Source: a virus. From it: a DNA stretch of 61,469 nt. The position numbers were made by a program, and so were the translations under genes. The stretch covers positions 1 to 61,469 of IMG/VR virus record IMGVR_UViG_3300048838_000933. One strand, 5' to 3'. The notes below the pieces were generated by a model, which saw only the letters and a list, made by a program, of their open reading frames with translations, made no database searches and was not told where the DNA came from. Positions 493-61,469 of this stretch are shown in pieces (positions within the stretch are counted from its first letter, which is position 1; each line of letters starts with the position of its first letter).

Positions 493-511
493 GTTGCCGT
501 GAAACTTGAGA

Positions 512-527
512 TGTTTCACGTGAAACA
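512..527. other. parS: parS centromere site (ParB-binding, chromosomal type)
   Basis: TGTTTCACGTGAAACA is the exact 16-bp palindromic parS consensus bound by chromosomal ParB in most bacteria. A chance match in a genome this size is very unlikely. I found no ParA or canonical ParB gene in the window, so the natural partner would be host ParB. It lies in a non-coding control region between SOS boxes and the first rightward promoter. Confidence 0.85.
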
Positions 528-6726: not shown

Positions 6727-6852
6727 ATGGCTGACGACATCTACGACTTCGACGATTTCGACGACGACCCGGACGACTCCGAAGCGTTAGAGGCGTACGT
6801 CTCGGACGTGGTGGCAGTTGTAGAGGCGTTCGGTGTGGAGATTCCCGAATGA
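6727..6852 (+). CDS. Very acidic 41-residue protein
   Basis: About 17 of 41 residues are Asp or Glu (DDIYDFDDFDDDPDD). ATGA overlap with the amidase gene argues it is translated. Unknown function. Confidence 0.5.
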   Translation: MADDIYDFDDFDDDPDDSEALEAYVSDVVAVVEAFGVEIPE

Positions 6853-8774
6853 CATACGAATGGGCCTCATGGCAGCTTCCGGCGCTGCTCGCCGACCCGG
6901 TCGTCGCTCCGAAGGTCATCGTCGTTCCCGGGCACGAGACGCGCGGTCGTCCGCCGTCGCAGTTCTCGTTCTTCCCGTCCGGCATCCTCGAGCACCACAC
7001 GGCGTGCATGTGCCGCATCGGCCACGACCCGCAGTCGTGCATCGACGTCATCGTCAGCGGCCACGGAACCACGCCCGGCCCGATCTCACAGCTCCTCGGC
7101 ACGTTCACGCGTCCCGGCACGAAGTGGACGGGCTCGAACGCAGACCCCCACATCGTGGTGATCGCTGATGGTCGCGCGAACCACGCCGGCTCGGGCGAAT
7201 ACTCCTGGGGGGCCCCTTCGGGCAACGGCTCGTCGATCGGCGTCGAATGGTGTATTGAGGCAGGCACTCCAGTCGTCACCCGTCGCGGTCTCGTTCCGAT
7301 CGAAGACGTCAAGATCGGCGATCTGGTATGGACTCACCGAGGCCGATGGCGCCCAGTCTCGGCGGTACATGACCGCGGTGAGCGCGACACTGTCACCATC
7401 AAGGCGGTCGGAGCGCGGCCTGTCTCGACCCCGGAGCACGAGTGGTGGACCGGCAGGGACTTCGTTCGCGCCGACCGCCTTGGTCCCGACGACGCGCTCG
7501 TGTCTCCCGCCGTCACTGATGCGGCCGTCCCTGATCTGGACGGGTTCACCGTCACTCCCGAATTGCTCCGCTTCATCGGCGCCTATGTCGCCGACGGGTG
7601 TACGTCGATCATCGACCGACCCCGCAAACCGGGCCATCTCCGAAAGGACCATCGACTCATCGTTTACCCGCGGGCAGAGAAGGCTGAGGTGGTCGCCGGG
7701 TGGGCGCGAGCCGCCGGACTCAACATCCGCAACGAACATTCTCACGCCGACACAGCACGTCGCCTCACAGTCGAATCAAAGGCCCTCGTTGAGTTCGTCG
7801 ACTACCACTTCGGTAGCCGGGCCCTGAACAAGACTCTCCCCTCCTGGTTGCTCGCGAACGCCGACAAGTACGGAGAAGCGTTCCTCCACGGCTATCTCCA
7901 CGGCGACGGCCACTGGGACGAAGAACGCTCCGCGTGGCAGGTGGCAACATCCTCGCGTTGCCTCCATGTCGGTGTGGCGATGCTGGCTCGCTCTCTCGGC
8001 TGGACGGCCATCACTGCCAGCCGCCACATTGAGGGAGAGAAGATCATTCACGGAAGGATCACGCGCGGTAACGCCGACCGCTGGACGCAACGTCTCTACG
8101 CCCGCCCGGTGCGGCGCTGGTCCAGCAGTCAGCGCCGCGACAGTGACGCCACCCTGGCCCCGTTTCGTACCACCGAAGCGGCCGGTCTACGGCACGTCTA
8201 CGACATCACCGTCGACGACGACCACAGCTTCGTCGCAGACGGGTTCCTGACCCACAACTGCGGGCCTGTGGACGATTGGCCCGATGAGGTCATCGATTTT
8301 CGCGCCCACGTCACCGCAGCACTGCTGCGCAACCGGCGCTGGAACGTCGGCAATGTCGATACCCACTACAGCTATGCCCGCCCGATCGGCCGCAAGATCG
8401 ACCCGTCCGGCGCGTGGGCGGGGGAGCCCACCTTGGGACTCACTCAGCCGTGGGCGCGCAACACCTGGCGCAGTCAGGTTGATCGCGTTCTGAACGCCCC
8501 CGCACCGCCACCCCCATCACCCGACCCCGAACCACCGATCACCCCCAAGGAGATACCCGACATGCTGTTCATCGCCAAGCCAACATTCCCCGGCGCCACC
8601 ACATCCGACCCGTGGATCGTCTACTACGAGAACCCCGGCAACGCACCCAGGGCCGAGCGGGCAACGAACGCCCACGTCAAGGCCGCGGCCGTCCTCGGCG
8701 TGCCGGTCGTAGACCAGGACTCACGGGAGCAGTACCTCAACGCCCTCTCCACTTACGGCATCCCGCTCACCTGA
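6849..8774 (+). CDS. Endolysin: N-acetylmuramoyl-L-alanine amidase precursor with intein
   Basis: 641 residues translated, 305 after splicing. The extein is an Amidase_2-type lysin that cuts the bond between muramic acid and the stem peptide. EHHTAC (near 49-53) holds the first zinc His. HYSYARPIGRKIDPSG after the intein holds the second His and the Lys/Asp of the active site. The intein sits between SIGVEW and CGPVDD. A proline-rich linker (PAPPPPSPDPEPP) leads to a C-terminal domain of about 70 residues, probably wall-binding. Context is lysis. An internal start may also make the C-terminal domain alone. Confidence 0.85.
   Translation: MTYEWASWQLPALLADPVVAPKVIVVPGHETRGRPPSQFSFFPSGILEHHTACMCRIGHDPQSCIDVIVSGHGTTPGPISQLLGTFTRPGTKWTGSNADPHIVVIADGRANHAGSGEYSWGAPSGNGSSIGVEWCIEAGTPVVTRRGLVPIEDVKIGDLVWTHRGRWRPVSAVHDRGERDTVTIKAVGARPVSTPEHEWWTGRDFVRADRLGPDDALVSPAVTDAAVPDLDGFTVTPELLRFIGAYVADGCTSIIDRPRKPGHLRKDHRLIVYPRAEKAEVVAGWARAAGLNIRNEHSHADTARRLTVESKALVEFVDYHFGSRALNKTLPSWLLANADKYGEAFLHGYLHGDGHWDEERSAWQVATSSRCLHVGVAMLARSLGWTAITASRHIEGEKIIHGRITRGNADRWTQRLYARPVRRWSSSQRRDSDATLAPFRTTEAAGLRHVYDITVDDDHSFVADGFLTHNCGPVDDWPDEVIDFRAHVTAALLRNRRWNVGNVDTHYSYARPIGRKIDPSGAWAGEPTLGLTQPWARNTWRSQVDRVLNAPAPPPPSPDPEPPITPKEIPDMLFIAKPTFPGATTSDPWIVYYENPGNAPRAERATNAHVKAAAVLGVPVVDQDSREQYLNALSTYGIPLT
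7251..8258 (+). mobile_element. Class 1 intein with LAGLIDADG endonuclease in the amidase
   Basis: 336 residues. It begins with Cys1 (CIEAGTPVV, then LVPIEDVKIGDLVWT) and ends in FLTHN followed by Cys+1 of the extein, the standard splicing residues. TPEH gives the block-B His. FIGAYVADG and FLHGYLHGDGH are the two LAGLIDADG motifs with their acidic residues, so homing activity looks intact. The insertion interrupts a conserved part of the amidase between the zinc ligands, so the enzyme needs splicing. Confidence 0.9.
8562..8774 (+). CDS. Possible internally started C-terminal endolysin domain
   Basis: An in-frame ATG at 8562 is preceded by AAGGAG (547-552 of the 8000s) with a 9-nt spacer, one of the better ribosome sites in the region although it lies inside a gene. 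It would make a 70-residue protein (MLFIAKPTFPG...) equal to the domain after the Pro-rich linker. Internal starts producing free binding domains are known in some other endolysins. Confidence 0.5.
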   Translation: MLFIAKPTFPGATTSDPWIVYYENPGNAPRAERATNAHVKAAAVLGVPVVDQDSREQYLNALSTYGIPLT

Positions 8775-12230: not shown

Positions 12231-12971
12231 ATGAGCGTCGAGAGAATCTCTCAGGTGCTGAACTGTTCAACGGGACTGACGTCCACGCAGAAGTTGATCC
12301 TCATCGGAATCGCCAACCACGACGGAGACGGCGGCGCCTGGCCTTCGATCGCCACACTGGCGCGCTACGCGGAGGCGTCTGAACGGACCGTCCAGAGGGC
12401 CATTGGCGACATGGTGGACGCTGGGGTTCTGGCTGTTGAAGTGCGGGGCGGGGGGACGCACCGGACTCGAAATGACCGGAGGCCGAACCGCTACGAAATA
12501 CATCTCGACGGGGTGACATCCACGGCAGACGCCCCAGGACGGGGTGACATCCAGGGATCGGACGGGGTGACATCCAGGGCCCCACGGGGTGACATAGCTG
12601 TGTCACCCGAACCATCCTATGAACCGTCCCATGAACCATCCGACGAAACGCTCGCTGGCGCTCGCTTGACGAAAGCCGACGCTTTCGCCGAATTTTGGTC
12701 GGCGTACATCGGCGCATACGGGTCAAAAGCATCCGGCTCAAAGGGGGCAGCCTTCAAGGCGTGGCAGAAGATGGCGAAGCGCGACATGGCGTTGGCGATG
12801 GAGGCGGTGGAGCGCCAATCGCGAGCGAGGACCGAGCAACACGCCGTACCGCACGCCTCGACCTGGCTCAACAACTGCCGCTGGCTCGACGACGAACTCC
12901 AGGTCCGTCCCGGACGAGGCCCCGATCGGACGCAATCCAACCCGTTCACCGAGAGAGGACTGTTCGGATGA
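12231..12971 (+). CDS. Phage replication initiator (winged-helix, O-like)
   Basis: 246 residues with AAGGAG upstream. The N-terminal half is a winged-helix domain (STQKLILIGIANHDGDGGAW PSIATLARYAEASERTVQRA, about 18-65) as in phage O-type initiators. The C-terminal part (FAEFWSAYIGAYGSKASGSK, FKAWQKM, ASTWLNNCRW) resembles DnaD/loader-contact regions. The middle, about 95-125, is low-complexity because the DNA there holds iterons. Initiators of this type bind the origin in their own gene and recruit the host helicase through a loader. Confidence 0.8.
   Translation: MSVERISQVLNCSTGLTSTQKLILIGIANHDGDGGAWPSIATLARYAEASERTVQRAIGDMVDAGVLAVEVRGGGTHRTRNDRRPNRYEIHLDGVTSTADAPGRGDIQGSDGVTSRAPRGDIAVSPEPSYEPSHEPSDETLAGARLTKADAFAEFWSAYIGAYGSKASGSKGAAFKAWQKMAKRDMALAMEAVERQSRARTEQHAVPHASTWLNNCRWLDDELQVRPGRGPDRTQSNPFTERGLFG
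12507..12608. repeat. Iteron array, candidate replication origin
   Basis: Four direct copies of a GACGGGGTGACATCCA-type repeat start at 12507, 12538, 12561 and about 12583 (the last shortened), and an inverted copy TGTCACCC lies at 12601-12608 opposite GGGTGACA at 12587-12594. Spacings of 31, 23 and 22 put the copies in different reading frames, so the conservation is in DNA, not protein. Confidence 0.75.
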
Positions 12972-17635: not shown

Positions 17636-17707
17636 GCGACTTGCGAATCACGCCCTTGCACAGCAAGAGTGTCCGACCAGAAGTGCTCAAGCCCTAGGAG
17701 GCCAATC

Positions 17708-19366
17708 GTGTTCCCCGAAATCCCCGAGAACTGGAAGTCGCTGAGCGCTTCCGAACTTCGTGCCCTCGCCGCCGAGATCAAGACCGCGTTCACGGAACTC
17801 GGTGACGACATCGACGCCGACCTGCGCACCAAGGCGCTCGCCGCCGTCGACGGCCGCCCCGCCCTGCTCAGCCTCGCCGCCGAGAAGGAGCGCGAGGCCG
17901 CCGCCAAGGCTGCGCTCGCCGCCGAGGAAGACGAGATCGACGAGTCCGCCGACGACTCGGCCGACGACTCCGACGAGGACGACCTCGGTGACGAGTCCGA
18001 CACCGACGACGACGCCGACGAGACCGACGCCGACGACCTGTCGTCGAAGACCCCGGTCCGCAAGTCCGGCACGTCCACCGACCTCGGCGCCGAGCCCGAA
18101 GCCAAGCCGGCCACCCCGGCGCTGCGCCCCGACGCCATCCTGGCTCGCGGTGGCGTCACCGACCGCAAGGGCGGCGAGCGCTTCGAGAGCTGGGGCGACC
18201 TCGCCCAGACGCTGCTCGAAGTCGCCGAGACCGTCTCGCCTTCCTCGACCGCCAAGCACCAGGTCGCCTACGTGGAAGGCAACTTCTCCGAGGCCCAGCA
18301 GCTCGGCCCGAACATGGTGTCCAACCTCAAGCGGTTCGACACCGAGGAACTGCAGGCAGCGTTCTGCGCACCCGCCACGCCGGTCTACGACATGGCGTGC
18401 TGGAACACCGACCGCCGCCCGGTCCGTGGCAGCCTCCCACAGTTCCGCCCCGACGCCCGCGGCTCGGTCAGCATCTTCCCGTCGCCGTCACTGTCGGACA
18501 TCACCGGCCAGTCGCCGGCCGGTGTCGGCATCTGGGACACCGACGACGACGACACGATCGGCACGACCGACCCGTCGTCGAAGGAGTGCGCGACGATCAC
18601 CTGCGGTTCGCCGACGGTGTACTCGCTGTACGGCGTGTGGCGCTGCCTCACCATCCAGAACTTGCTCGCCATGACCTTCCCTGAGCTGGTCGAGGCGTGG
18701 CTCAACCGCCTGGGCGCCGCCCACTCCCGTCTCGCCGAGACCCAGCTCCTTGAGGCCATGGGTACCGAGGCTGCAGCGGTCACCGGTGAGACCTTGGCCT
18801 ACGGCGCTTCGACGTCGGTCACCACCCAGATCCTCGAAGTGATCGCCCTCCACCAGGAGCAGGAGCGCTGGGACGGCGACCAGATGGAAGGCTGGATGCC
18901 TCGCTGGGTCCGCTCGGCGATGAAGATGGACATCATGCGTCGCCGCAGCGACTCGGGTCGCCCGTCGATGGTGACCGACGCGGAGATCGACACGATGTTC
19001 CGCAACGTCGGTGTCAACCCGCACTTCTTCATCGACACCCCGACCTGGGCCGCAGCCGTTCCGGCCGTCGCCACCGGCGGCAACAAGAACAACCTGCCCG
19101 CCACCATCGACATCCTGCTCGCCCCCCGGGGCAAGTTCGCCGTCATGGACCGCGGCCAGCTCAACATCGGCGTGACCGGCAACAACATCTACCGCGACAA
19201 CGCATCGAACGCCTCCAACCAGTTCACCATGTTCTGGGAGAACTTCGAAGGCATCGTGAACACCGACTCGTGCCCTGCGTACCTGCTCGAGTTCCCGGCG
19301 CTCTGCTACAGCGGCGTCCAGATCGCTGACCTGGCGATCGACTGCGACGGCACCCCGACCGTCTGA
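17708..19366 (+). CDS. Major capsid protein with long acidic N-terminal domain
   Basis: 552 residues from GTG 17708, chosen for the perfect AGGAGG 7 nt upstream, the strongest ribosome site in the head cluster. Residues 1-150 form a helical and then very acidic segment (EDEIDESADDSADDSDEDD), like the delta/scaffold domain removed by the protease. From about 170 the sequence fits an HK97-fold capsid of actinophages (QHSRLAETQLLEAMGTEAAA-like helix, RRRSDSGRPSMVTDAEIDTM, GKFAVMDRGQLNIGVTG). Confidence 0.85.
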   Translation: MFPEIPENWKSLSASELRALAAEIKTAFTELGDDIDADLRTKALAAVDGRPALLSLAAEKEREAAAKAALAAEEDEIDESADDSADDSDEDDLGDESDTDDDADETDADDLSSKTPVRKSGTSTDLGAEPEAKPATPALRPDAILARGGVTDRKGGERFESWGDLAQTLLEVAETVSPSSTAKHQVAYVEGNFSEAQQLGPNMVSNLKRFDTEELQAAFCAPATPVYDMACWNTDRRPVRGSLPQFRPDARGSVSIFPSPSLSDITGQSPAGVGIWDTDDDDTIGTTDPSSKECATITCGSPTVYSLYGVWRCLTIQNLLAMTFPELVEAWLNRLGAAHSRLAETQLLEAMGTEAAAVTGETLAYGASTSVTTQILEVIALHQEQERWDGDQMEGWMPRWVRSAMKMDIMRRRSDSGRPSMVTDAEIDTMFRNVGVNPHFFIDTPTWAAAVPAVATGGNKNNLPATIDILLAPRGKFAVMDRGQLNIGVTGNNIYRDNASNASNQFTMFWENFEGIVNTDSCPAYLLEFPALCYSGVQIADLAIDCDGTPTV

Positions 19367-21325: not shown

Positions 21326-22535
21326 ACTTCCCGCACTCAAGATTCGCAACCTCAAGCTCAACGACTGGGCGCTGTCAAAGGCGACGCTCGCCGAGCTGGA
21401 CGCCTACCTGCGACGCCACAACCCGATGAACATCGTCGAGTTCGGCTCCGGCCACTCCACAGTGATCCTGGCCCGCTACGCCTCGGAGACTGGAGCCAAC
21501 GTCACTACCTTTGAGCACGACCCGAAGTTCCTGCGCCAGACCCACCATCTCCTCGGCGGCCTCAGGGGCTACGTCGACCTGGAGTTGGCGCCACTGGCCG
21601 GCTCGCCCCCGATGTACAGCGCGAGGATGCCGGGGCTGTTCGACTTCGCCCTGATCGACGGACCACCGCAAGGCAAGGGCGGGCGGGCCGCGACGTTCCC
21701 GGCGCTGATGGACATCGACCACGGCGAGTACGCCGAAGTGTGGCTCGATGACGGATCGCGGCAGCAGGAATCTCTGGCGGCCGAGGAGTGGATGAAGACC
21801 TTTGCTGGGTGGTCGTTCGACTTCCACGGGTTGCCTCACGGGCTGCTGCGGTTCGGCAAGCACATCCGACCGCCACTGATCGACGGCACCGGGGTAACGA
21901 TCACCATGTTGACCGGTGCCCGCCCGGAGCTGTTCGCCGACACCTGGAACCACCTCCCCAGGTCGCTCGTCCAGTCGGCGGATTGCATCGTCGTGCTCGT
22001 CAACGGAGCCGACGTCGAGACCTTGCAGTTCGTTGAGGATCACATCGTCCCGCTCGGGCTCAACCTCGTGAAACTGACAACGACCGAGATCGAACCGATG
22101 GGCCAAGCCATGGGACGGTTCGTCGACCATGTCGAGTCACCCCTGTGGTTGCACCTCGAGGACGACTGGCGCTACGTCACCACCCACGACGGCTGGCTCA
22201 ACGAAGCACGGACGGTCCTCGCTGACGAGCCCGATGTCGCCCAGGTTCGTCTCCGTCACAGCTCGGAGTCCGTGCTCGACTACCACCAGCAGACCCGCAA
22301 GCCGCTCAACTGGCAGTCCCACCAGTTCGGGATGGTGTCGGAGAGTTCCCACCTGACCGCCAACCCGATGCTGGCGCGCACCGATCAGTGGGCATCGCTG
22401 TGGCCGTGCGTCGGTGAGAAGGCGATGCAGAGAACCGCCGTGTCCAAAGGGATGCACCGGGTGGTACAACTGCATCCTGGTGCGTTCACTCACACGGGAG
22501 ACTCAGATTCGCTCAGAGGGAAGTTGGGGCGTTGA
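21318..22535 (+). CDS. Two-domain methyltransferase / glycosyltransferase
   Basis: 405 residues. The N-terminal 190 residues are a class I SAM-dependent methyltransferase (NIVEFGSGHSTVILARYAS, TTFEHDPKF, FDFALIDGPP). The C-terminal half from about 195 looks like a GT-A transferase, with WLHLEDDWRYV as the acidic metal motif. Such a fusion could add a sugar and cap it by methylation. Overlaps the first transferase by 8 nt. Confidence 0.7.
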   Translation: MPELPALKIRNLKLNDWALSKATLAELDAYLRRHNPMNIVEFGSGHSTVILARYASETGANVTTFEHDPKFLRQTHHLLGGLRGYVDLELAPLAGSPPMYSARMPGLFDFALIDGPPQGKGGRAATFPALMDIDHGEYAEVWLDDGSRQQESLAAEEWMKTFAGWSFDFHGLPHGLLRFGKHIRPPLIDGTGVTITMLTGARPELFADTWNHLPRSLVQSADCIVVLVNGADVETLQFVEDHIVPLGLNLVKLTTTEIEPMGQAMGRFVDHVESPLWLHLEDDWRYVTTHDGWLNEARTVLADEPDVAQVRLRHSSESVLDYHQQTRKPLNWQSHQFGMVSESSHLTANPMLARTDQWASLWPCVGEKAMQRTAVSKGMHRVVQLHPGAFTHTGDSDSLRGKLGR

Positions 22536-41917: not shown

Positions 41918-42157
41918 TCAGCGGTCGGTCCAGCCGGGCCGCTGACGGATCAGTTCGCCGACCAGCAGGAACCCTTCGAGCGCGTCCAGTATCCGGCCGA
42001 CCTGGGCGTCGTCGAGCTGGCTCCACGAGGTGATGTCTCGTCGCAGGAAGACCTGGGCGAAGTCGATCCTCTCCTCGTCGGTGAGTCCGATCTGGTCCGA
42101 GTAGACGTGCATCTTGCGTCGCCGGGCAGCGAGGATGTCCCGTTGGTTGACGGCCAC
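41918..42157 (-). CDS. Unknown leftward helical protein
   Basis: 79 residues from a GTG. Helical with GLTDEERIDFAQVFLRRD and a C-terminal LIRQRPGW. It is divergent from the WhiB gene, with TAGGAT at -12 to -7 on its own strand. Confidence 0.65.
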   Translation of the reverse strand: MAVNQRDILAARRRKMHVYSDQIGLTDEERIDFAQVFLRRDITSWSQLDDAQVGRILDALEGFLLVGELIRQRPGWTDR

Positions 42158-42163
42158 CCGCCT

Positions 42164-42169
42164 ATCCTA
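42164..42169 (-). promoter_or_regulatory. Leaderless -10 TAGGAT for leftward gene at 42157
   Basis: On the minus strand TAGGAT ends at -7 from the GTG. No clear -35. Confidence 0.5.
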
Positions 42170-42176
42170 CGAGATT

Positions 42177-42590
42177 GTGCCAAGGGCTGCGTCCTACAGC
42201 GGATCGTTTGATGAGATGCCACTGTCGGTTCAGCGCGCCGCCGCCGTACCTCGCGACTACTACGCCCAGGCGTTGTGTCGGCCCGGAGAATCGTCGGTGC
42301 CGTCGATCGCGTGGACCGTCGAGCCCGGCAAGAAGAAGCACTCAGTGGCCGGCCACCTGTACGACGGAGACACACTCGTCGAGCTGGCGTTGACCACCTG
42401 CCGCATCTGCCCGGTGCAATGGGAATGCGCCGCCGCTGCGATCGCTGCCGAAGAAGCCGCTGGCATCTGGTCGGACCACCTCGACAACCTGCGCGTCTTC
42501 CGCCGCACACCGAATGTCCTGCTCGAGTTGAAGGCTCGTGGCGTTCCGGTGCAGGAGGCTGTACGCCGGGTCGCCGCTGGCATAACATGA
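42177..42590 (+). CDS. whiB: WhiB-family iron-sulfur regulator
   Basis: 137 residues from GTG 42177; ATG 42216 is an alternative. One Cys in YAQALCRPG and three in TTCRICPVQWEC make the WhiB 4Fe-4S site, followed by GIWSDHLDNLRVFRR, the G[VI]W turn and basic tail. WhiB proteins bind the housekeeping sigma factor and are limited to actinobacteria and their phages. Phage copies are known to interfere with host WhiB and cell division. Confidence 0.8.
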   Translation: MPRAASYSGSFDEMPLSVQRAAAVPRDYYAQALCRPGESSVPSIAWTVEPGKKKHSVAGHLYDGDTLVELALTTCRICPVQWECAAAAIAAEEAAGIWSDHLDNLRVFRRTPNVLLELKARGVPVQEAVRRVAAGIT

Positions 42591-43202: not shown

Positions 43203-43652
43203 ATGACCACAACCATGACGCGAGCCGAGGAGAAGCAGGCGGCACAACACACTCGCTTCTTCGAACGCGTCTTGGAAGGCTGCGGCCCGCTCAACGCCGC
43301 CATCGAGGTCGGCTGGTCGCCGGCCGAACTGGACCGCAAGATGAAGGACGCCGAGTTCGCCGAGACGGTCGGCATCGTGCTCGAACGCCGACTCGAAGGT
43401 GTTGAGGAAACCATCTGGGTGAAGGCACGCGAAGGCGTCCGGTGGGCAGCGCAGATGGTGGTCTACAACCAGCGCTCCGACCGATGGAAGGACGTGCGCC
43501 ACATCCGCACCGAAGTCTCCAACCAGCTCGACCCGGCCACCGTCACCTCGGTGAAGCAGGCCATGCTGGAAGTGTTGCGCGGCGACGTCGAATCCATCAC
43601 CGCCATGCAGCCCAAGTACATCGAGGCAACGGCAGTCGATGTCGACGACTGA
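43203..43652 (+). CDS. terS: Small terminase subunit (probable)
   Basis: 149 residues. FFERVLEGCGPLNAAIEVGWSPAELDR looks like the helix-turn-helix of a small terminase, followed by helical oligomerisation segments. It overlaps the large subunit gene by 14 nt. Confidence 0.7.
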   Translation: MTTTMTRAEEKQAAQHTRFFERVLEGCGPLNAAIEVGWSPAELDRKMKDAEFAETVGIVLERRLEGVEETIWVKAREGVRWAAQMVVYNQRSDRWKDVRHIRTEVSNQLDPATVTSVKQAMLEVLRGDVESITAMQPKYIEATAVDVDD

Positions 43653-46293
43653 GCAGGAGCTACTCGAGCAGGCCCGACGTGTCGCCCTGCCGTCACTGAT
43701 CGGCATGGAGATCGGCCACACGATCTGGGAAGGCGGCTGGCAGCCGTACCCGTTCATCCTCGACGCCGAACGCGAACTGGTGTCTGCTGCGGTCAGCCCC
43801 GAGCAGGAGTGGTACATCCTCAACGCCCCGAACCAGATCGGCAAGCTCCTGACGCTCGAAACGCCAATTCCGACTCCCAGTGGTTGGACCACGATGGGCG
43901 AGGTTCAGGTCGGCGATCGGGTACTTGGGGCGGACGGGAAGCCCTGCAACGTCACCAACGTGTCCCACATTCAGCGCGAGCGGATCCATCGCCTCGTCTT
44001 CGACGACGGCTCGACCGTGGAGGCTGGCCCGGAACATCTCTGGCAGACGTTCGATTTCGACAGCTTTCGCTCCTACTCCGGCAGCAAGCGGGGGGGCGAC
44101 CTGCGGATTGAGCACGACCCGGAATGGTGGGACTGGCGCAGTGCGGGCGGCAAAGGCTCCGAGGTTCTCCGCACCGACGAGATTCTCGCGACGCTGACCA
44201 ACAAGCGCGGCCAATCCAATCACTCAATCCCCAACACCTTCCCGCTGGAGCTACCGCGCGCTGACCTTCCGATAGAGCCGTGGGTGCTCGGCTACTGGCT
44301 TGGCAACGGTGGTCGGGGAAGCGGGTCAGTCACCACGGGCTCGCTGGCAGGGGACTTCGACGAGAAGCACGTTTGCGGAAAGCTGGATGATGCTGGATTC
44401 GGCTACTCGGTGAGGTCCGACGACGCCCGAGGGCAGTCCAGGATCCATGTTCGCGGGCTGATCTCCCAGTTGAAATCGCTCGGCATTGAACATAACAAGG
44501 CGGTGCCACCCGAGTATCTGCGAGCATCGAAGGATCAGCGCCTGGCGTTGCTGGCGGGCCTCATGGACTCGGACGGCGGGCCGGAGAACGCCAAGAAACT
44601 GAGCGGGTCAGTGTCGTTCTCCTCCAAGGATGAGCACCTCGTTGAAGCCGTCCAGGAACTCGCCCACTCGCTGGGGTGCAAGACGCGCCGGCTGGACCGC
44701 CAAGCGAAGCTGAACGGCAAGGACTGCGGGCCGTCGCATCGAGTGTTCTTCACGCCACCGTTCAACCCGTTCACCCTTCCCCGCAAGGCCGCTCTCTGGC
44801 AACCCAGCGAAGAGACCGGTCGGGCCATGCAGCGTCGAACCCGCCAGATCGTCGACATTGAGGTGCTTGAGGAGGTGGTGGAAATGCGATGCATCTCAGT
44901 CGACTCGCCCGGCAATCTCTATCTGGCTGGCGAACAGATGGTCCCCACTCACAACACCAGCTACGCGACGCTGTTCATCTTCTGGTTCATCGGCATGTTC
45001 CCGGACCGTCAAGTCATCTTCATCTCCTACTCGGAGGGCTACTCGTCGGAGATCGGCCGCAAGGTGCGCGACCTGTTCAAGATGCACGGCGAGCGACTGT
45101 TCGGGCTCGAGGTCGACCCTGACAACGACTCGCAGGGCGACTGGTCACTCAAGGGCCACCCGTCGGGCGGGATGCTGTCGGTGGGTTGGACCGGCCAGAT
45201 TCAGGGACGTCAAGGTCACCTGGTCTGGATCGACGACCTCCTCCGCACCATCATCGAAGCAGCGTCCGCCACCACGAAGGACGCTCAGTGGGCAGAATGG
45301 CAGGGCACCATCTGGGGCCGTCGTCAGCCGGGCTCGCTGTACGTCGTGTCGCAGACCCGTCTCGCCGAAGACGACCTGTCGGGGAGGCTGATCAAGCAGA
45401 TGGAGACCTCGGAGGCCGGCATCGGTTGGAAAGTGCTGTCCTACCCGGGCCTGTGTTGGGTGCCGGAGAGCTGGGAGGGCCCACCCGAGGAGTACCGGGA
45501 CCGCCTTGGTCGGGCCGCCGGGGAGCCGCTGATCACCCGCTTCTCCCGCCCCGACGACACCCCCGACAAGAACTGGTGGCTGCTCGCCAAACGCCAACTC
45601 GACAACCCGCAGGTGTTCGACTGCATGGTGCAGCAGAACCCCACCAACTCCGAAGCTGGCATGTTTCCCGAGGATCGCTGGGTGAAGCTACCGCGAGCCG
45701 AATGGCCGGAGCGCTTCGTCGCGACCCGCGTGTGGGACATCGCCGGCACCGAAGGGTCCGGCGACTTCACGGTCGGCGCGTACCTGTCCAAGGACTTCGG
45801 TGGTCGCTACTACATTGAGGGCCGCTATCGAGAACAGGTGGGCCCTGAGGAGGGGATTTCCCAGGTGAAGAAGCACGCAGAGGTCGACGGGCACGGCGTC
45901 ACCATCCTCATCGAGCAGGGCAAGTCCGGCTCAGAGAAGCAGCTCATCGAGTTCTACCAGCAGCACCTTCCCGGCTACACCGTCGAGCCAGCCAAGACCG
46001 ACGGGACCAAGGAGCAGCGCGCCCTGACCTACTCGGTGCTTCAACGGCAAGGCAACGTGGTGCTACCCGCCGACGAGGAGGACGCCGAGTGGGTGGAGAA
46101 GTGGATCAAGGAGCACAAGGGGATGATGGGCGACGGCAGACGCCCGCGCCACGATGACCAGATCGACGTGGGCGCCTACGCGGTCAGGTGGCTGGCCCAA
46201 CACGAATCATCGCAGTGGCGCGACCCGAACGACGACCTCGACCCCGAACGTCAGATGCAGTTGGAAGCCATGCTGGAGGCGATGGGCATCTAG
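43639..46293 (+). CDS. terL: Large terminase subunit precursor with intein
   Basis: 884 residues translated, 514 after splicing. The motor cuts and pumps DNA into the prohead. Walker A NAPNQIGK-TSYA is formed only after intein removal. Walker B is VWIDD, and nuclease acids are in VWDIAGTEG and RHDDQIDVGAYA. The gene lies after the tail genes and before the leftward operon. Confidence 0.9.
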   Translation: MSTTEQELLEQARRVALPSLIGMEIGHTIWEGGWQPYPFILDAERELVSAAVSPEQEWYILNAPNQIGKLLTLETPIPTPSGWTTMGEVQVGDRVLGADGKPCNVTNVSHIQRERIHRLVFDDGSTVEAGPEHLWQTFDFDSFRSYSGSKRGGDLRIEHDPEWWDWRSAGGKGSEVLRTDEILATLTNKRGQSNHSIPNTFPLELPRADLPIEPWVLGYWLGNGGRGSGSVTTGSLAGDFDEKHVCGKLDDAGFGYSVRSDDARGQSRIHVRGLISQLKSLGIEHNKAVPPEYLRASKDQRLALLAGLMDSDGGPENAKKLSGSVSFSSKDEHLVEAVQELAHSLGCKTRRLDRQAKLNGKDCGPSHRVFFTPPFNPFTLPRKAALWQPSEETGRAMQRRTRQIVDIEVLEEVVEMRCISVDSPGNLYLAGEQMVPTHNTSYATLFIFWFIGMFPDRQVIFISYSEGYSSEIGRKVRDLFKMHGERLFGLEVDPDNDSQGDWSLKGHPSGGMLSVGWTGQIQGRQGHLVWIDDLLRTIIEAASATTKDAQWAEWQGTIWGRRQPGSLYVVSQTRLAEDDLSGRLIKQMETSEAGIGWKVLSYPGLCWVPESWEGPPEEYRDRLGRAAGEPLITRFSRPDDTPDKNWWLLAKRQLDNPQVFDCMVQQNPTNSEAGMFPEDRWVKLPRAEWPERFVATRVWDIAGTEGSGDFTVGAYLSKDFGGRYYIEGRYREQVGPEEGISQVKKHAEVDGHGVTILIEQGKSGSEKQLIEFYQQHLPGYTVEPAKTDGTKEQRALTYSVLQRQGNVVLPADEEDAEWVEKWIKEHKGMMGDGRRPRHDDQIDVGAYAVRWLAQHESSQWRDPNDDLDPERQMQLEAMLEAMGI
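43846..44955 (+). mobile_element. Class 3 intein with LAGLIDADG endonuclease in TerL
   Basis: 370 residues inserted in the Walker A loop between GK and TSYA. The first residue is Leu (LLTLETPIPTPSGWTTMGE), not Cys or Ser. The W-C-T triplet of class 3 inteins is present: Trp two residues after the block B His (PEHLW), Cys in block F (EMRCISVDSPGNLYL), and Thr as the +1 residue after THN. VLGYWLGNG and LLAGLMDSDGG are intact LAGLIDADG motifs. Confidence 0.85.
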
Positions 46294-47157: not shown

Positions 47158-47378
47158 GACAGGTCTCCGTTGCTGAGGAGGTAGGCCATGTTGCTGATCT
47201 GCCCGTCGATGTCGACGAGCGTCTCCGCGAGAGACACAGCCTCCTTCGGGTTGGCTTCGCACCAGTCGTACGGCGAGTCGAACCCGGCCCGCGACGACAA
47301 CGCCATCACTGCTCGGCGTAGATCTGGGTCGGTCTTCATGGATTCACGGATGATCGCTGCAGCTTCAACCGGAGACAT
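47154..47378 (-). CDS. Unknown small protein
   Basis: 74 residues, helical (PVEAAAIIRESMKTDPDLRR). Overlaps the LexA-like gene by 14 nt. Confidence 0.6.
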   Translation of the reverse strand: MSPVEAAAIIRESMKTDPDLRRAVMALSSRAGFDSPYDWCEANPKEAVSLAETLVDIDGQISNMAYLLSNGDLS

Positions 47379-47748
47379 TCTTCGCTCCCTTCATGTCGAT
47401 CTTCGATCCGACGACCCGGATCGTTCGGGCGCCGTCGCCCATCTCGATCACACCGTAGGCGACGAGCCGGTGTAGCGAGTTGTGTGCCGCCGAACCCGAG
47501 CACCCAACCCCATTGGACACTTCGGTCACCGATGGCGGCCAGCCGTTGTCGACGATGAAGTCGCGCACGAAGTCGTACACGTCGACGTCACGTTCGGTCA
47601 GAGTGAGCTTCCGGCTGATCCCGGCCCGGGCCAGTCGAGTCGACACAGTCCCGACCGACACGTCGAAGTGGGCGGCGGCGGCAGCATGGGTGGCTCCCGG
47701 GTTCTGGTCGAAGAACTCGGCCAGCTCGTCGAGCGTCAGATGTTGCAT
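47365..47748 (-). CDS. LexA-type winged-helix protein lacking the protease domain
   Basis: 127 residues with GGAG before ATG 47748. Residues 5-45 form a first HTH (LDELAEFFDQNPGATHAAAA...GTVSTRLARAGI). Residues 48-112 follow the LexA DNA-binding domain (VYDFVRDFIVDNGWPPSVTE, GVGCSGSAAHNSLHRLVAYG, RTIRVVG). LexA normally continues into a self-cleaving S24 domain, which is absent, so this protein could not be released by RecA in the usual way. The four SOS boxes near the join are candidate targets. Confidence 0.75.
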   Translation of the reverse strand: MQHLTLDELAEFFDQNPGATHAAAAAHFDVSVGTVSTRLARAGISRKLTLTERDVDVYDFVRDFIVDNGWPPSVTEVSNGVGCSGSAAHNSLHRLVAYGVIEMGDGARTIRVVGSKIDMKGAKNVSG

Positions 47749-47758
47749 GTGGTCTCCT

Positions 47759-48409
47759 TCACTGGTGCCTCTTGGATCGCCGGCCCGGTTTGCGCAGGAC
47801 CAGCAATCTCGAGGAGTTGGAACGTAGGTGCTTCTGCGTTGCGTGCTTCGGCTGCGGGCCGGGTTCGCCGAGGTGGACGGCGATGTCGTCAACCTTGAGC
47901 CCGAGGGACAGGGCGTGGTTGATGGTGTGGTACTCGCCCGGCCAGACCGAGCCCGACGAGATGTAGTTCGACACCTTGGCAAGAATCAGGCCCTGCGGGC
48001 GGAGCACTCGGGCGCATTCGGTGAGCCCGTCGTTGATGTACTGCTGGAGGGAAGCTGGCGACCGGTAGGCGAGATCGATCCCATATCGAGCGTTGAACTC
48101 AGGGATGGTCGAAGTTGCCTTGCCCCCGGTGGACACGTAGGGAGGGTCATAGGCCACAACATCGACGGACTCATCCGGCTCGGGCAGGGCTCGAAAGTCG
48201 ACGCCGTCGATCTTGAGGTCATGGGCGGTGAATCGCACCACGTACTCCTCGCGCCGCCAATGCCACCATGTGCCCCGCCCGAACGTCACGTCCATGACGA
48301 CTGGCCCGCCCGGCACCATCGCCCACGGCTTCGAGTTGACGTGAATCTCGAAGATCGCCTGGATCAACTCCGAGTTGGTGCGCCACTTCTGCACCTCGAG
48401 CCAGGTCAT
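47759..48409 (-). CDS. DNA methyltransferase, DPPY type
   Basis: 216 residues, ATGA overlap. VVAYDPPYVSTGGK is the catalytic DPPY motif of N6-adenine/N4-cytosine enzymes; VMDVTFGRGTWWH resembles the SAM-binding motif I region. No restriction partner is nearby, so protection against host restriction is likely. Confidence 0.75.
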   Translation of the reverse strand: MTWLEVQKWRTNSELIQAIFEIHVNSKPWAMVPGGPVVMDVTFGRGTWWHWRREEYVVRFTAHDLKIDGVDFRALPEPDESVDVVAYDPPYVSTGGKATSTIPEFNARYGIDLAYRSPASLQQYINDGLTECARVLRPQGLILAKVSNYISSGSVWPGEYHTINHALSLGLKVDDIAVHLGEPGPQPKHATQKHLRSNSSRLLVLRKPGRRSKRHQ

Positions 48410-60152: not shown

Positions 60153-60166
60153 CGAACAGGTGTTCG
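60153..60166. promoter_or_regulatory. SOS (LexA) box 3
   Basis: CGAACAGGTGTTCG matches CGAACRNRYGTTCG fully. Confidence 0.75.
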
Positions 60167-60200: not shown

Positions 60201-60214
60201 CGAACAGGTGTTCG
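60201..60214. promoter_or_regulatory. SOS (LexA) box 4
   Basis: CGAACAGGTGTTCG, identical to box 3 and 48 bp from it. A weaker copy with two mismatches lies between them at 60184-60197. Confidence 0.75.
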
Positions 60215-60471: not shown

Positions 60472-61469
60472 ATGACACTCACCTATGAACTACCGGAACC
60501 GCGAGGCGCTGAACGCGAGCGCGAGATCGCTCAAGCGCTGGCCGATGGAACGGACCCGCGACATCATGCCGATGTCGTTCGCGATGCGAACGTGCACGCG
60601 CTGCTCGATCCGACTCGGCGCGGCGACGCTGACACCTACACAACGGCCGCGCCGAGTCCGTTCGTTGCCACGACATCGGCGCGCAAGGTCAAGCGCGGCA
60701 AGAAAGGAACGTCCACAACGATCACGACCCGCGGGCAAGTGTGGACGGTAGGCGACTCTCAAGCGCTTGACGATCAGCTCACGCGCAACGGACGCGTGCC
60801 ACGCGTCGTGATCTCTCACGCCATCGATGAATTGCGCAACGGCTCACGTTTCGGTCACGTCGATGGCGACAAGCTGGCCGCGCTCACGACGCGGCTCTAC
60901 GACATCCCCGAGCTGATCGGCACCGATCATTGGTCGTGGTCGCAGTCGACGCCGGAGATCCCCTCAAGCGGTGCTGCGGTGTTGGCCGCGCAGACTTGCG
61001 GTCTGTCCGGTGGAGCGGTCCCCATGCTCGATCTTGCGCTCGCACCGGAGTACAAGTGCGCTGACGACGACCCGCGATGGTTCCCGACGTCGTGGCCGCG
61101 CAAGCCTCACATGAGGCGACAGACCACGCGGTTGCGTCTACCGGCCATTAGGGCCCGCAAGGCTGATCCGGCGCCATATGAGCACGTTCTGCGCGGTGTG
61201 TGGACATGGGAACACGTACGCGAATGCGTCGCACCGTCGGCCGATCCGTCGCACATGTTCCTAGGTCATCGACTAGTCAAGCGCGGCGACACTGCAGCGC
61301 GGCCACGCGGTGCGACAGTCACCTATCGCGACTCATTCGTTATCGATCCGTCGGCAGACCTCGCGGAGTCTCTCGCGTCGATCGCTTCAATCGTTCGCGA
61401 CGACGGACCAGGCAAATACCGTTGGCGCGTCGACGGTACAGACGCCGCGGGCACGATGACAGTTGACAA
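60472..61469 (+). CDS. N-terminal part of join-spanning unknown protein
   Basis: Starts at ATG 60472 with GGAG five bases before; an in-frame ATG at 60427 lies in the promoter and is unlikely. The frame is open to the end of the window and continues from position 1 of the next turn to 276, giving 362 residues. It is basic around residues 80-92 (ARKVKRGKKGTS). Codon use here (many cgc, gcg, acg codons) seems slightly different from the structural genes. No family recognised. Confidence 0.8.
   Translation, partial: MTLTYELPEPRGAEREREIAQALADGTDPRHHADVVRDANVHALLDPTRRGDADTYTTAAPSPFVATTSARKVKRGKKGTSTTITTRGQVWTVGDSQALDDQLTRNGRVPRVVISHAIDELRNGSRFGHVDGDKLAALTTRLYDIPELIGTDHWSWSQSTPEIPSSGAAVLAAQTCGLSGGAVPMLDLALAPEYKCADDDPRWFPTSWPRKPHMRRQTTRLRLPAIRARKADPAPYEHVLRGVWTWEHVRECVAPSADPSHMFLGHRLVKRGDTAARPRGATVTYRDSFVIDPSADLAESLASIASIVRDDGPGKYRWRVDGTDAAGTMTVD
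61285..61469. repeat. Right copy of terminal overlap
   Basis: Same 185 bases as 1-185 apart from seven substitutions in the first 58. One copy should be removed to give the circular unit of 61,284 bp. Confidence 0.95.

Follow-up and report, generated by a model that had tools for sequence, protein, structure and literature searches.

A perfect copy of the parS site of bacterial chromosomes lies in an apparently complete tailed-phage genome in which we found neither a ParA nor a ParB gene. We consider this site probably (at roughly 60%) to be a centromere mimic, that is, a putative loading site through which host ParB would hold the phage genome in position, tether it or partition it. The whole stretch of DNA analyzed, hereafter the window, is 61,469 nt long (IMG/VR record IMGVR_UViG_3300048838_000933). 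Positions 512-527 read TGTTTCACGTGAAACA, a palindrome that matches the chromosomal parS consensus at 16/16 bases, as an earlier note on this DNA had stated, and it is the sole match in the window when up to 3 mismatches are allowed. Shuffled sequence gave a mean of 0.07 matches at the same threshold, and Markov models of order 0 to 3, fitted to the GC-rich window, predicted 0.8e-6 to 5e-6 exact copies, or roughly one exact copy per million windows. An additional half-site, GTGAAAC, adjoins the full site at 499-505 (+ strand); it may be due to chance, and other copies of the same seven bases occur in the window at 22068 and 46925.

Positions 61285-61469 of the window repeat positions 1-185, giving a 185-bp end overlap, and a 362-aa ORF (+ strand), the first 332 codons of which occupy 60472-61469, spans the join to position 276 with either copy of the overlap. 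The map thus is circular or circularly permuted and its 'left end' is arbitrary, so that the 'left' placement previously given to the control region around parS does not hold. The window appears to represent a complete, circularly overlapping genome of ~61.3 kb, though the overlap fits a headful-packaged, circularly permuted genome as well as a circular replicon. The mismatches between the two overlap copies (1-57 versus 61285-61341) are few and confined to the first 57 bases, which suggests that two strains are present in the assembly.

Genes for a portal, head protease, capsid, tape measure and intein-bearing terminase are markers of a tailed phage, probably a siphovirus. The major capsid protein (17669-19366, + strand, phrog_777) has its best relatives in actinophages, mostly phages of Microbacterium, Gordonia, Streptomyces and Arthrobacter; these relatives, together with a domain match to a WhiB-like protein, an actinobacterial marker (42114-42590, + strand), point to an actinobacterial host. 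The replication genes comprise a RepO-like initiator (12231-12971, + strand, HTH_36 domain match), a helicase-loader-like gene, SSB and RusA, of which the first two fit the theta-type replication proposed earlier. The terminase ORF (43639-46293) contains an insert that resembles a LAGLIDADG homing endonuclease/intein; Hint/intein and LAGLIDADG domains also occur in a second ORF (6849-8774), which has a match to an endolysin. A search with the capsid protein returned only five contigs: two are distant, and the three close ones are fragments of 7-10 kb that do not include the parS region. The 362-aa protein, a 171-aa protein encoded near parS and the head protease, used as queries, gave no match covering the parS site, and a scan of bacterial genomes with the capsid protein found no prophage relative.

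The parS site is flanked by the end of the 362-aa ORF (276) on one side and by the starts of a 33-aa ORF (740) and the 171-aa ORF (838) on the other, and by its motifs this gap looks like a repressible, SOS-responsive control region. The SOS boxes and promoters that had been described beside the site were borne out as SOS-box-like sites and one promoter-like site nearby. Perfect SOS (LexA) boxes are present at 348-361 (CGAACACGCGTTCG, actinobacterial/Gram-positive type) and 378-391 (CGAACACACGTTCG), and another perfect box upstream of the 362-aa ORF (60153-60166) has an identical copy at 60201-60214. Two perfect operator-like palindromes of the GTCATNNNATGAC type, GTCATGTTATGAC (434-446) and GTCATATTATGAC (480-492), were also found, the latter 20 bp from parS, and a third (724-736) covers the -10 element of a sigma-70-like promoter, TTGACG-17-TATCAT (705-733, + strand). 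The 33-aa ORF (740-841, + strand) is membrane-like and, with its start ~7 bp past the -10 element, possibly leaderless; no relatives were found for the 171-aa ORF downstream (838-1353, + strand). The SOS boxes and operator-like palindromes around parS suggest a repressible stage.

Allowing up to 1 mismatch, 12 palindromes of the GTCATNNNATGAC type occur in the window versus 1.55 expected. Besides those at 434, 480 and 724, they lie near several gene starts (8800, 20565, 26262, 42579 and 52536) and possibly define a phage-wide regulon. An ORF on the - strand (47368-47985) has a LexA-type DNA-binding domain near its end and, given the four perfect SOS boxes flanking the 362-aa orphan gene, could encode a phage LexA mimic. 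The orphan itself, which adjoins the parS region, had no family, PDB, phage or plasmid relatives in our searches, and its predicted fold was uninformative (pLDDT 37).

Six-frame profile searches of the window found no ParB_N, no ParA-type AAA_31, no tyrosine integrase and no serine recombinase, and a Pfam scan of its 127 ORFs was likewise negative for ParB, ParA and both types of integrating enzyme, in agreement with the earlier note. The window shares the absence of an element-encoded ParB with mobile elements that borrow their parS (phi29, SGI1). Neither the phage-encoded ParA and ParB of phage-plasmids with their own parABS (RedRock, P1) nor the tyrosine or serine integrase of integrating temperate phages was detected in it.

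Perfect parS sites are found in many other phages. At least 120 IMG/VR contigs carry the exact 16-mer, compared with 1 for the reversed palindrome and 3 for a palindrome with one pair swapped. Among GenBank phage records, 400 matched a parS 30-mer and 13 and 24 matched two control versions, a comparison made by records rather than places because places in a palindrome are counted twice, once on each strand. ParB_N was absent in 46/50 of the IMG/VR carriers longer than 16 kb. Judged by these counts, the parS motif is under selection in phages, many of them without ParB. Escherichia and Klebsiella phages are plentiful in the GenBank collection sampled, and 60 evenly spread carrier records included no Escherichia, Klebsiella or Salmonella phage, as expected if the reader is host ParB; to our knowledge, these three hosts have no chromosomal parABS. 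The reader that the carrier hosts have in common would be chromosomal ParB.

In 12 carrier contigs, parS is located a short way upstream of the gene for a terminase of 481-494 aa. For an unbiased sample of this marine phage family, loci were collected by their terminase and not by the motif. An exact parS lies upstream of terL in 51 of the 76 loci with enough upstream sequence; of the other loci, one differs from it by 1 mismatch and one carries the symmetric variant TGTTCCACGTGGAACA, all others having at least 5 mismatches. The distance from parS to terL in the family is 40-311 bp. Among 19 members whose flanks are dissimilar, all 16 bases are invariant and most adjacent columns show 30-60% identity, though these 19 were picked for an exact parS, and the unbiased figure is 51/76. 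ParB_N was absent in 17/17 long contigs of the family, within which the motif has the pattern of a site maintained by selection. Some members have TGTTCCACGTGGAACA as a second parS variant, and GGGGCCCC/GGGACCCC-like palindromes lie directly before terL.

Exact parS sites also are present in cultured phages: two each in Arthrobacter phages Mimi, VroomVroom and Emotion (with variants in addition in the latter two), Gordonia phage Harambe and Lactobacillus phage LpeD, four in Bacillus phage vB_BcoS-136, three in Ruegeria phage DSS3P8, and one each in Listeria phage P100 and Spiroplasma phage 4. The carriers include microviruses and an inovirus, a filamentous phage of 6.2 kb (PQ006097.1) with six exact sites, mostly intergenic, and the phi29-like phage PZA has four parS-like sites with up to 2 mismatches. 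ParB_N was absent in 12/15 cultured carriers tested, including Arthrobacter, Gordonia, Bacillus, Listeria, Lactobacillus and Ruegeria phages, and was found as a 297-aa protein in three Microbacterium phages; the ParB-like proteins in this set are those of Quhwahvirus and Metamorphoovirus. In VroomVroom and Emotion, 6-7 dispersed sites share a 14-bp core, GTTTCACGTGAAAC, in a stoperator-like layout. Bacterial contamination was rejected as the main source of the IMG/VR carriers for the terL-linked family and for the cultured phage genomes; it possibly accounts for some carrier contigs, and the records 'Listeria phage LM 4-11-1' and 'LM 4-14-1' could be contigs of bacterial DNA.

Since no ParB gene accompanies the host-type parS of the phage, host ParB is the candidate loader. 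We infer that it would bind the phage parS, loading as CTP-bound clamps that slide over the adjacent phage DNA and tie the phage genome to the host ParA system and possibly to SMC. The most likely benefit would be that, with the lytic program held back, one or a few phage genomes are positioned, tethered or partitioned. Positioning or partition in a latent stage is plausible on the sequence, given the SOS boxes, the operators and the finding of neither integrase nor parAB. Of the plasmid-like prophage segregated by host ParB that the earlier note had envisaged, the borrowing of host ParB stands as the best explanation, in view of the motif enrichment and the conservation in phages without ParB. 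None of the results refuted it, though no relative that spans the site turned up. The plasmid-prophage part is unproven and does not follow from the site alone, since parS also occurs in phages regarded as virulent, among them P100 and LpeD, which we take to be virulent going by their family, as well as in microviruses and an inovirus. Such carriers make prophage partition incomplete as an explanation, and the single site in the window and the ParB-like proteins in some carriers (4/50; Quhwahvirus, Metamorphoovirus) also count against host-ParB partition.

This kind of borrowing, which the earlier note did not know as an established one, has precedents in phi29 and SGI1, and thus the parS of the window is not a new kind of arrangement. 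For phi29, host Spo0J/ParB serves spore entrapment of the phage genome (Meijer et al., 2005, as cited in PMC9437464). By that secondary account, the handling of the phi29 genome involves host ParB. The phi29-like PZA, in which no ParB was found, resembles the window phage in carrying host-type parS-like sites without its own ParB. In contrast, PZA has several imperfect sites and the window a single perfect one within a regulatory region; the benefit described for phi29 in the same account is spore entrapment, whereas the likely host of the window phage is an actinobacterium that may or may not form spores. SGI1 carries parS mimics that are read by the ParB of an IncC plasmid and gains stability from them (PMC10954446). 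It too is a mobile element with a centromere mimic for the ParB of another replicon, with the stability gain demonstrated, but it is a mobilizable island rather than a phage and the ParB is plasmid-encoded.

Two further systems share features with the window. Extrachromosomal prophages of the mycobacteriophage RedRock type have their own ParA and ParB and a parS consisting of an array of 8-bp direct repeats (PMC7157519). Like the window, they are actinobacterial phages without integrase, and they partition as plasmids; unlike the window, they encode parABS, and their parS is not the chromosomal 16-mer. The chromosome of Corynebacterium glutamicum has ten parS sites, clustered near oriC (PMC7083940), which belong to the same 16-bp Bacillus-type consensus class as the site in the window but are read by the ParB of the same chromosome.

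The main rivals to host-ParB partition are local transcriptional control and a role in lytic growth. For the former, host ParB would also bind, but the clamps, as they spread, would silence or tune promoters up to a few hundred bases away and so couple phage gene expression to the state of the host chromosome. The location of the window parS between operator-like palindromes and a promoter would suit such control, as would the sites close upstream of terL in the marine phages and the Mimi site, which is intergenic, with genes 44 and 45 diverging from it on either side. Pseudomonas aeruginosa ParB, moreover, represses the promoters adjoining parS3 and parS4 (PMC5521831). However, the distance to terL is variable, from 40 to 311 bp, and in the Microbacterium phages parS lies inside a coding gene, for a helix-turn-helix protein, where it is retained although the flanks differ between genera. 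We regard a transcriptional benefit as possible but unlikely.

A role in lytic growth rather than latency appears distinctly unlikely to us. Host ParB would then bind and load SMC, or be titrated, with the result that phage DNA is compacted or kept separate or that the segregation of the host is upset. Such a role is consistent with parS in carriers regarded as virulent, in a phi29-like phage, in microviruses and in an inovirus, but with a single site in each genome ParB would be titrated only once replication was extensive, and no feature of the window specifically favors a lytic role. We give little credence to the 16-mer being the operator of a phage regulator, identical to parS by coincidence. 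Some Arthrobacter phages do have dispersed sites in a stoperator-like arrangement, and the window encodes potential regulators (RHH, LexA-DBD and WhiB), but it holds one site only, and unrelated phages whose hosts span many phyla have the same 16 bases, a pattern better explained by one conserved reader in the hosts than by many regulators encoded by phages. Least credible is a chance occurrence or functionless leftover of host DNA, which would accommodate a single copy but is at odds with the ~1e-6 copies expected and with a map that closes on itself and so has no host flank.

Host-centromere borrowing itself is known, being documented for phi29 in the account cited above. The extent of borrowed parS among phages appears unreported in the literature searched: this took in few subscription journals and no preprints, and we found in it no account of the prevalence of perfect parS sites in phage genomes. 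The comparison made here suggests that such borrowing is found repeatedly in different phage groups and hosts, with virulent and single-stranded DNA phages among them. To this the window adds a perfect single parS in an apparently complete actinophage genome with SOS boxes and with neither integrase nor parAB detected, the situation in which a phage would profit most from borrowed partition. We see about even odds that host-centromere borrowing is a general viral strategy, in which temperate and virulent double-stranded DNA phages, microviruses and inoviruses of many ParABS-bearing hosts carry perfect parS sites, in most tested cases without a ParB of their own, and clamps of host ParB-CTP load on phage DNA as it enters or replicates; in non-sporulating hosts, the role would be other than spore entrapment. 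If host ParB does load on the genomes of these carriers, ParABS would be a direct interface between phage and host.
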